The translations under genes and the position numbers were made by a program. The notes under the pieces are model-generated. The model worked only from the letters and a program-made list of their open reading frames with translations, was not told where the DNA came from and searched no databases. This document shows positions 9,867-48,674 of a DNA stretch of 64,000 bases, piece by piece (position 1 is the first letter of the stretch; every line of letters starts with the position of its first letter). The stretch is from IMG/VR virus record IMGVR_UViG_3300034110_001237, positions 1 through 64,000 of that record; one strand, 5' to 3'. The DNA is from a virus.

Positions 9867-10664
9867 ATGAATATTTTAAAATTTTCAGTTATCCTTTTAA
9901 TCGCTATCTTTTTCTGTATCCTTGGTGGATTTGGAATTGGCAACATCTATTACCAATCACTCATTTCTGATTATGGTTATAAGTTTGGTAGTGGTGATAC
10001 TCTTTTCATCATGTCTGCCTGTACATTGATTGGATTGCTTACTTTTGTACACGCTTGTTCATTTTTAGAGAACCCTAAAAAAGCTATTTTATGGCTGGTA
10101 GGTATTGTTATTGTTGTTTCACCGATTATTTATTTCACAACCAGCTCATTGAGTAAAGACGATAAAGTTTATCAGCAAGCTCTTATTAATTATGGTTCTC
10201 GATTTAATGTATTGCTTTCAAAGACAGAAAATGATTTGAAAAAGCACCCGGATTACATTGCTTACAAATATCAACTTGATAATTTTGAAAAAGATAAAGA
10301 AAGTCGAGCAGCTTATGTGACATTGCTTAATGAAAAAGTTGATAAATATAATAAATATATAAGCGAACAGGCTCCGGGTCTATCATTTTCAGCCAGTCGC
10401 TATTATATCTATGGGCCAGAGTTTAATAAATTTGTCATGAGGTATAAAGGGGTTGAAGATCCAGTTGTTCAAAAAAATCTCTATGGAATAACTAAAAGTG
10501 GTGTTGTTTCCTACAATGACATGATGGACTTTCAGGTTAAATTTGTAGATAACTATAAAAACGTAATCAATAAAGATAGTCCGGTGGTTGAACATCCATC
10601 AGTTCCTGTTATCGTCACACCAGCAGTGACAGAAGAAAATAAAGAAACACCCGCCATTGAATAA
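9867..10664 (+). CDS. Membrane protein with three helices, 265 aa
   Basis: Starts 3 nt after its partner's stop, with GGAG 8 nt before the ATG. Helices at about residues 5-24, 42-62 and 72-92; then a helical soluble part and a Pro/Val/Glu-rich tail (VVEHPSVPVIVTPAVTEENK) that looks disordered and extracytoplasmic or linker-like. No enzymatic motif. Confidence 0.75.
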   Translation: MNILKFSVILLIAIFFCILGGFGIGNIYYQSLISDYGYKFGSGDTLFIMSACTLIGLLTFVHACSFLENPKKAILWLVGIVIVVSPIIYFTTSSLSKDDKVYQQALINYGSRFNVLLSKTENDLKKHPDYIAYKYQLDNFEKDKESRAAYVTLLNEKVDKYNKYISEQAPGLSFSASRYYIYGPEFNKFVMRYKGVEDPVVQKNLYGITKSGVVSYNDMMDFQVKFVDNYKNVINKDSPVVEHPSVPVIVTPAVTEENKETPAIE

Positions 10665-10705
10665 TCAATTAATTGTTGTTTCTAGTTAAACTCAAAGCCC
10701 TATAT

Positions 10706-10731
10706 AAATGCCTTTCAAAAGGCATTTTTTT
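10706..10731 (+). terminator. Rho-independent terminator
   Basis: Nine base pairs, AAATGCCTT/AAGGCATTT, TCAA loop, T-run. Confidence 0.9.
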
Positions 10732-10740
10732 ATATAATGA

Positions 10741-10768
10741 TTGTAATTTTTAGCGATTGTGGTATAAT
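10741..10768 (+). promoter_or_regulatory. Promoter with extended -10 for NAD kinase
   Basis: TTGTAA (10741-10746), 16-nt spacer, TGG-TATAAT (10763-10768). The TGTGGTATAATA form recurs many times in the window. Confidence 0.7.
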
Positions 10769-10797
10769 AAACCAAATCAAAAAAGCGAGATACGATC

Positions 10798-11646
10798 ATG
10801 AATAACATCTATAAAGTTTGCATTAAACTCAACTATTCACAAGAATCAGTCACCAAACAAGCTGAAATCACCAAATTGATTTCGTTTATTCATTCAGTCA
10901 TGAGTAAAGCGGGTTGGCGTGAAGCCATTGAATCCGATTCAGTGATTGATTATGTGTTCTCTATCGGTGGTGATGGCACTATGCTGCACACCATGCAAGA
11001 TCATGTTATCACCAAATCCATTGTCGTTGGTATCAACGCTGGTAACGTAGGCTTCTTGACCCCTTACAACATTGAAAATGTCTATGACATGAGCGTCTTC
11101 AAATTCCTTGAAGAAAACGCCAATACCCGTGTTGAACATCGTAGCATTCTCAAACACAGTTTTGACACCCGTTCCGAACAAGGTATGGCAGTGAACGAAT
11201 ATACCTTTACGGCTGACCAAGTGAACCATGTTCTGGACTTCTCCATTGAAGTTGATTACAAAGGCCAAGTCAGTAAAGCAGGTCACTACAAAGCTAATGC
11301 CTTGTTGATTTCTGGCCCTTGTGGTTCTACTGCTTATAACATGAACTCTGGCGGGGCGATTGTTGACCCGACTGTTCGTTGCATGCAGATTATGATGGTT
11401 GCTCCTACTATCTTGGGTATCCGCCCATTGATTATTGGTCGTAACTCCATTATCCGTTTGAAGTTCCATAACAATGCAAAAGTCTTCATTGATGGTCAAC
11501 CACATACTGATATTCCAGTAACCGAAGATGAAACATTCAGTATTGAATTGCTGTCCGAAGAATCTCGTGTGCTGTTGCCTGACGACTTCAACTTTTACAG
11601 CATGCTTAGCACTAAGCTTCACTGGAACAATGGGAGTGGTGTATGA
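10798..11646 (+). CDS. nadK: NAD kinase
   Basis: Phosphorylates NAD+ to NADP+ using ATP in the cytoplasm. The diagnostic GGDGTM motif is at residues 57-62, the following strand/turn gives GINAGNVGFL (about 78-87), a VNEYTF segment matches the conserved NE of the family, and GPCGSTAYNMNSGG matches the glycine-rich substrate loop. Length (282 aa) is normal for bacterial NadK, so the enzyme looks intact. It has its own promoter and is translationally coupled to the next gene by an ATGA overlap. A phage copy may raise NADPH for nucleotide synthesis or offset NAD-depleting defence; that is inference. Confidence 0.93.
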   Translation: MNNIYKVCIKLNYSQESVTKQAEITKLISFIHSVMSKAGWREAIESDSVIDYVFSIGGDGTMLHTMQDHVITKSIVVGINAGNVGFLTPYNIENVYDMSVFKFLEENANTRVEHRSILKHSFDTRSEQGMAVNEYTFTADQVNHVLDFSIEVDYKGQVSKAGHYKANALLISGPCGSTAYNMNSGGAIVDPTVRCMQIMMVAPTILGIRPLIIGRNSIIRLKFHNNAKVFIDGQPHTDIPVTEDETFSIELLSEESRVLLPDDFNFYSMLSTKLHWNNGSGV

Positions 11647-48135: not shown

Positions 48136-48164
48136 TTGCCAAAGTGATCGAAATGTCGTATAAT
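48136..48164 (+). promoter_or_regulatory. Near-consensus promoter for the ncRNA
   Basis: TTGCCA (48136-48141), 17-nt spacer, TATAAT (48159-48164). Predicted start about 48170-48172. No start codon or Shine-Dalgarno sequence follows. Confidence 0.85.
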
Positions 48165-48187
48165 AGTCCCGTTGTTAAGCAATAAGG

Positions 48188-48509
48188 TAATCTTGGGAAG
48201 TTGGCTTAGAAGCAGCCATCTTATAATGAGTAGAGCGGTTGCCATAGGTGTTTGGGATTAAGTGATGGTAAGCATCGGGTTTAAATGATTTAGCGGTCAT
48301 TTAAAGGTATCGGTGACAAGTGAGCCACGGTTTGTCGAAATCGAATCCACATTAAAGTAGATTTTGCAGATCAAAACGCCTCAGCCAAAAGCTCCCAGTT
48401 CTTGCAATAATGTAAGAATTCGCCGTGGTTGTGGTCTTGGTCAAGTAAGGAGGCACCCCAGAAATGGTAAGGCTGAATTCTCTTTTGGCGTAATAGCACA
48501 CCATGATTA
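48188..48509 (+). other. GTPase-associated-centre mimic within the ncRNA (split H42/H43/H44)
   Basis: In 23S rRNA helices 43 and 44 follow one another and are closed by helix 42; uL11 and thiostrepton bind there. Here H43 (48200-48220) keeps the loop with the equivalent of A1067, and H44 (48488-48497) keeps the equivalent of A1095. The GG-GA-x-GTTGG junction 5' of H43 and GC-x-CAC 3' of H44 are also kept. The closing stem differs in sequence but still pairs, as expected for selection on structure. The direct H43-H44 link is replaced by a large insertion. Confidence 0.8.
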
Positions 48510-48533
48510 TGATTGTTTTTGCAACAAAACCTG

Positions 48534-48599
48534 CCACTAAGGCTGACCTTGGCCCTCTAAAAGCTAAAGGGAACGGTTCGACTCCGTTGTGGTGGACCA
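48534..48599 (+). other. tRNA-like 3' domain of the ncRNA
   Basis: T-arm AACGG-TTCGACT-CCGTT (48572-48588), acceptor 3' strand GTGGTGG (48589-48595), discriminator A and CCA (48597-48599). The nearest partner is CCACTA (48534-48539), giving 6 pairs, followed by a mini D-arm (AGG/CCT around CTGA) and a CCCT/AGGG stem with an 11-nt loop in place of the anticodon arm. An alternative partner, CCGTTGT at 48169-48175, would join the 5' and 3' ends as in tmRNA but needs five wobble pairs and overlaps the start site. Confidence 0.6.
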
Positions 48600-48609
48600 A
48601 CTTCTAAAT

Positions 48610-48645
48610 AATGCCAGCTCATAGTGATATGATGTTGGCATTTTA
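48610..48645 (+). terminator. Terminator of the ncRNA
   Basis: AATGCCA (48610-48616)/TGGCATT (48636-48642) with a 19-nt loop and TTTTATT after it. The next promoter begins immediately. Confidence 0.65.
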
Positions 48646-48674
48646 TTGTCTTTATTTTATTTTTATGATATACT
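48646..48674 (+). promoter_or_regulatory. Sigma70-type promoter, extended -10
   Basis: TTGTCT (48646-48651), 17-nt spacer, TGA-TATACT (48669-48674), for the three-gene operon 48701-50674. Confidence 0.65.

Follow-up and report, generated by a model that had tools for sequence, protein, structure and literature searches.

Organisation of the locus

The locus lies within a 64,000-nucleotide stretch of viral DNA (hereafter the window), whose source is a virus record of 161,697 bases (G000), and comprises an RNA gene copying the GTPase-associated centre of 23S rRNA (hereafter the mimic) and a 69-nt tRNA-like element, flanked by a single promoter-like and a single terminator-like site (Table 1). 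IMG/VR was scanned with a pattern made up of the D-loop, anticodon-loop and T-loop motifs of the element at near-fixed spacing; this retrieved four contigs, L056 (179 kb), L098 (152 kb), L111 (437 kb) and L118 (193 kb), which were aligned with the window as described below. The −10 hexamer TATAAT is retained in L056, L098 and L118, and the promoter-like site could serve a transcript common to the mimic and the tRNA-like element. The terminator-like hairpin is kept in the same three contigs, with L111 presenting a different T-tailed hairpin instead; a simple scan did not detect it. The flanking of both parts by one such pair of sites is seen in the window, L056 and L098. The largest ORF of G000 is only 608 aa in 161.7 kb, and among its six largest ORFs PHROG matched a single one, as virion structural, and Pfam matched none; G000 may be an accessory portion of some larger phage genome.

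Table 1 Features of the locus (feature, position in the window, strand, evidence)
Promoter-like site, sigma-70-type, TTGCCA-17-TATAAT	48136..48164	+	11/12 consensus matches; candidate by consensus only
Ribosome-mimic RNA, GTPase-associated-centre copy with closing stem	48171..48525	+	23S rRNA match; closing-stem permutations
Closing-stem base, GTTG/CAAC	48171-48174/48522-48525	+	Base pairing
23S helix-43-like hairpin, GTTGGCTTAGAAGCAGCCATC	48200..48220	+	Sequence; inside BLAST match 48194-48229
23S helix-44-loop-like motif, TTTGGCGTAATAGCACACC	48484..48502	+	Recurrence in viral and bacterial DNA
tRNA-like element, 69 nt	48531..48599	+	Pair conservation; RNAalifold; Rfam tRNA model register
Acceptor stem, 7 bp, CTGCCAC/GTGGTGG	48531-48537/48589-48595	+	7/7 pairs
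D-loop without stem, 9 nt	48538-48546	+	Comparatively supported fold
Anticodon-position helix, seven pairs, bulged A48566	48547-48553/48563-48570	+	Comparatively supported fold
Anticodon-position loop, nine bases, CUA at 48557-48559	48554-48562	+	Amber-type CUCUAAA
T-arm, AACGG-TTCGACT-CCGTT	48572-48588	+	Sequence
3' ACCA	48596-48599	+	Sequence
Terminator-like hairpin, AATGCCA...TTGGCATT, then T-rich tail	48610..48648	+	-16.8 kcal/mol

The ribosome-mimic RNA

The rRNA mimicry reported by the first-pass annotation is real, with positions 48194-48229 matching E. coli 23S rRNA at 89% identity (BLAST). The same segment matched 5,375 of 5,426 E. coli genomes at a median of 7 places each, in agreement with the seven rRNA operons expected, and an Rfam search of the window returned no match for the mimic. 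Its 3' motif was recovered from 109 viral stretches and 26 bacterial contigs, and the viral, bacterial and phage-record carriers group into about 97 clusters. A helix-43 equivalent lies upstream of the 3' motif in most of the viral sequences and, by the pattern used, is absent from many of the bacterial contigs. Across 56 clusters, the arms of the closing stem pair with their own partner at a mean of -16.7 kcal/mol, compared with -8.8 kcal/mol for the partners of other clusters, a specificity reached in none of 5000 permutations. In the window the closing stem ends near 48525, and the mimic therefore forms a closed domain, with the tRNA-like element outside it. Judged from these sequence comparisons, the mimic family looks real and widespread.

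Members of the family (L009-L144) are usually unannotated and combine a strongly partner-specific closing stem with a variable insert, and carriers among phages include Astolliot (L002), Aeromonas 4_4572 (L003), UNO-G1W1 (L004), Pseudomonas pf16 (L005), Kaldavass (L006), Serratia BF (L007) and XbC2 (L008). A literature search, outside which most subscription journals lay, found no report of a phage mimic of the GTPase centre. The sequence TAAGGCTGA occurs twice in the window, in the conserved 3' part of the mimic (48468-48476) and as the D-loop of the tRNA-like element (48538-48546); L111 carries it only in the element, so the repeat is probably a coincidence.

Fold and conservation of the tRNA-like element

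The T-arm, the 7-nt acceptor strand GTGGTGG and the ACCA end noted previously are all present in the sequence (Table 1), and a tRNA-like structure with CCA is upheld. The remainder of the fold differs from that drawn by the first-pass annotation, which had placed the 5' acceptor strand at CCACTA from 48534, giving 66 nt, and had assumed a reduced D-arm. With CCACTA, one pair is lost in L098 and covariation is not significant, the 5' strand being instead CTGCCAC from 48531, with 7 of 7 pairs, which extends the element to 69 nt; the D-loop is stemless and the anticodon-position helix is long. None of the slid registers of the fold approached the conservation score of the chosen register.

The five phage contigs (the window and its four relatives) align without gaps over 69 columns, and all 19 pairs are retained in all five sequences, with double-sided (compensatory) changes in 5 of them, a result matched by none of 500 shuffles. 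RNAalifold independently recovered the identical fold from the alignment. Of the five compensatory pairs, three belong to the anticodon-position helix, where the variation comes from L111 alone. Conservation of the T-arm and acceptor pairing in homologues, which had been put forward as a check, is borne out in the five contigs, with every pair kept. An encoded NCCA is likewise present in 5/5 sequences (ACCA in four, GCCA in L056). L056 has G in place of the discriminator base A73 and L111 has C in place of U8, and charging of the element is therefore not to be assumed. The anticodon loop is CUCUAAA or UUCUAAA, above a stem with a C.A mismatch that is extended as a longer helix. Conservation of the element is 97%, compared with 83-89% for the downstream gene, and is at least equal to that of the mimic. 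At the level of the alignment, the compensatory changes show ongoing selection on the element fold.

A conventional D-stem and cloverleaf fits the four close sequences, but two of its three D-stem pairs break in L111. Energy folding of the window sequence alone gave a cloverleaf-like alternative 3.2 kcal/mol better than the comparative fold, an energy minimum for which L111 gives no support. With a z-score of -0.04, the folding energy of the 66-nt stretch is uninformative, and the case for the element therefore rests on comparison. Modules combining a T-stem of five pairs, a T-loop, seven bases and NCCA occur six times in the 161.7-kb record, all on the + strand, and not once in 20 mononucleotide shuffles of it. 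These six consist of three ordinary tRNAs (Arg, Leu and Cys) and three aberrant modules that ARAGORN does not call, one of which is the element.

Relationship to tRNAs

The Rfam tRNA model (RF00005) aligns to 48531-48596 in the same register, skipping the D-arm and placing U33, a CUA anticodon and A37 in position, with a score of 18.4 bits against a cut-off of 29. ARAGORN did not call the element as a tRNA in the window, and its tmRNA search, like Rfam, was negative for a tmRNA. The element thus presents the 7-bp acceptor, canonical T-loop and NCCA of RF00005, with a sub-cut-off score, no D-stem and no tmRNA match, and is therefore classed as a variant rather than a member. When a covariance model of the element was run on the other loci searched, phage tRNAs with a CUA anticodon scored highest, including two not picked by the search pattern (L152 8556-8623 and L145 1805-1873), although these loci are a non-random set and the ranking is therefore a lead rather than a test. 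This kinship, seen in the model scores and in common loop and D-loop details, makes an amber-suppressor origin likely, and the element was probably derived from a phage amber-suppressor tRNA whose D-arm lost its 5' half.

Further candidates were sought and set aside. A looser pattern scan for members retrieved complete suppressor tRNAs and two matches not called by ARAGORN, and a second looser scan retrieved the known members together with matches resembling coincidences in coding sequence. The Vibrio phage sequences that BLAST matched to the element are ordinary tRNAs that have its T-arm in common.

Separability of the mimic and the tRNA-like element

The first-pass annotation regarded the tRNA-like structure as the end of the same RNA as the mimic, a view that is not confirmed, since L118 has the same promoter-like site, element and terminator-like hairpin and the mimic is absent there. 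The L118 element is identical to that of L098, and no mimic was found elsewhere in the L118 record at up to two mismatches. The lack of a mimic in L118 could be an assembly error; the distant relative L111 carries both mimic and element, which makes loss of the mimic in L118 the simpler reading. About 95 other mimic clusters are without this element, which is not an obligate 3' end of the mimic.

An ordinary tRNA lies directly downstream of the mimic in 19 of 96 clusters, where 2.7 would be expected from local tRNA density (P = 8e-11). These tRNAs are complete, of varied identity, and begin 26-52 nt from the point where the 3' motif starts; the window element, at 47 nt by the same measure, occupies the same slot. 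Taken together, the gene arrangements make the tRNA-like element and the mimic look like separable genes in one precursor, rather than one bipartite RNA. Because the parts are separable on all three counts (L118, the roughly 95 clusters and the ordinary tRNAs that follow the mimic), the suggestion that a single molecule would jointly recruit EF-Tu appears unsupported.

Two other ends were observed just 3' of the mimic motif. In L058 this is a minihelix-like end consisting of acceptor, six bases, T-arm and ACCA, and in L029 a tRNA-like end that has a nine-pair helix and no D-stem; either may be an attachment-site copy of a tRNA or tmRNA gene.

Other structured RNAs in the record

Two further aberrant tRNA-like RNAs were noted in G000. 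RNA B (G000:113138-113240; L162:9138-9240; 103 nt) has a perfect acceptor (GCGGATG/CATCTGC), a T-arm and CCA around a middle that is not tRNA-like, with conservation of 93% in the L056 record, 82% in that of L098 and 79% in that of L118. Within it, GCGTAATAG resembled the helix-44 loop of the mimic, a likeness that was discarded as the relatives do not conserve GCGTAATAG. RNA C (G000 about 113787-113960; L162:9787-9960) has a tRNA-like 5' half (GCCCTATAGTCTAATGGATAA), with T-arm, acceptor and CCA following at the 3' side after >100 nt of hairpins, and no clear match to it was found in the four related records. Candidate structured non-coding RNA stretches at G000 about 113285-113745 and 114210-114820 (L162:9285-9745 and 10210-10820) include a similar sequence in two copies, one beginning AAACGAATTAGGAGC and the other AAACGAATACGGAGC.

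Proposed function and alternative explanations

We consider it fairly probable that 48531-48599 is a stand-alone phage tRNA-like gene, co-transcribed with the mimic in one precursor, whose product is a minimal tRNA or a decoy. Transcription from the candidate promoter would yield a precursor covering both parts, from which an RNase P cut would release the 3' end of the mimic together with the tRNA-like RNA, whose own 3' end would mature at the CCA. From the position of the acceptor stem, the natural place for RNase P processing would be 48530/48531, rather than 48534 as previously suggested. The mature RNA may then meet readers of the top half of tRNA (RNase P, 3' processing enzymes, the CCA enzyme and possibly EF-Tu), acting either as a minimal tRNA or as a decoy. 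A more specific version is tentative and rather unlikely, namely that the element is an amber-anticodon tRNA lacking a D-stem which is charged and put to use, or else a decoy against a host defence that attacks tRNAs, while being co-transcribed with the mimic of the GTPase centre. If true, a single phage locus would yield mimics of both tRNA and ribosome.

That the element is a working amber-suppressor tRNA, charged and reading UAG without a D-stem, is unlikely: the positioned U33, CUA and A37 and the closeness to phage CUA tRNAs by model score favour it, but the score lies under the tRNA cut-off, the discriminator base varies among relatives, and no TAG recoding is visible among 229 long ORFs, since TAG closes only 14 of them, reading through it adds just short extensions and treating TAG as sense gives no longer ORFs. 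We regard as more doubtful still that mimic and tRNA-like end stay joined and act together on factors such as EF-Tu, EF-G or RelA, each of which, when on the ribosome, encounters tRNA as well as the GTPase centre. The shared promoter and terminator pair in three contigs and the presence of both parts in distant L111 are consistent with such a bipartite RNA, against which stand the element alone in L118, its absence from nearly all mimic clusters, the completion of the closing stem upstream of it and the signals for its own release that it carries. The least likely reading is that of a decayed, functionless tRNA remnant retained solely to signal 3' processing of the mimic; the element does occupy the slot often taken, downstream of the mimic, by complete tRNAs, but L118 keeps it intact despite having no mimic in need of processing, and the compensatory changes imply continuing selection on its fold.

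Comparison with known systems

A conserved tRNA-like gene without a D-stem would be unusual in a bacterial virus, and a literature search for D-armless tRNAs together with bacteriophage found no paper. The element could reveal the minimum tRNA needed for processing, charging or use as a decoy, while the mimic of the GTPase-associated centre, found in about 97 phage and bacterial clusters, is the larger discovery of the two; given their separability, they are best studied as two RNAs.

The element has in common with phage amber-suppressor tRNAs (CUA anticodon; labelled tRNA-Pyl by ARAGORN) the CCUCUAAAA loop, the C.A closing mismatch, the D-loop GG, the T-arm and the 7-bp acceptor, but these tRNAs have a full D-arm and a 5-bp anticodon stem, whereas the element has no D-stem and a longer, bulged helix. 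The tRNA-like domain of tmRNA consists of an acceptor, T-arm, CCA, a stemless D-loop and one helix replacing the anticodon arm. The element resembles it in each of these respects, and differs in being only 69 nt long, with a loop closing the helix in place of the mRNA-like part. GOLLD and ROOL are large phage RNAs found near tRNA islands, GOLLD sometimes with covalently linked tRNAs (PMC12286853). Their Rfam models gave no match to the joined RNA, either at the gathering score or at E-values up to 10, and the partner RNA here differs from them in copying the 23S GTPase-associated centre. The hairpin sequence of helix 43 and the loop sequence of helix 44, which form that centre in 23S rRNA, both recur in the mimic, but here the two helices are parted by an insert of about 260 nt and lie outside a ribosomal RNA operon.
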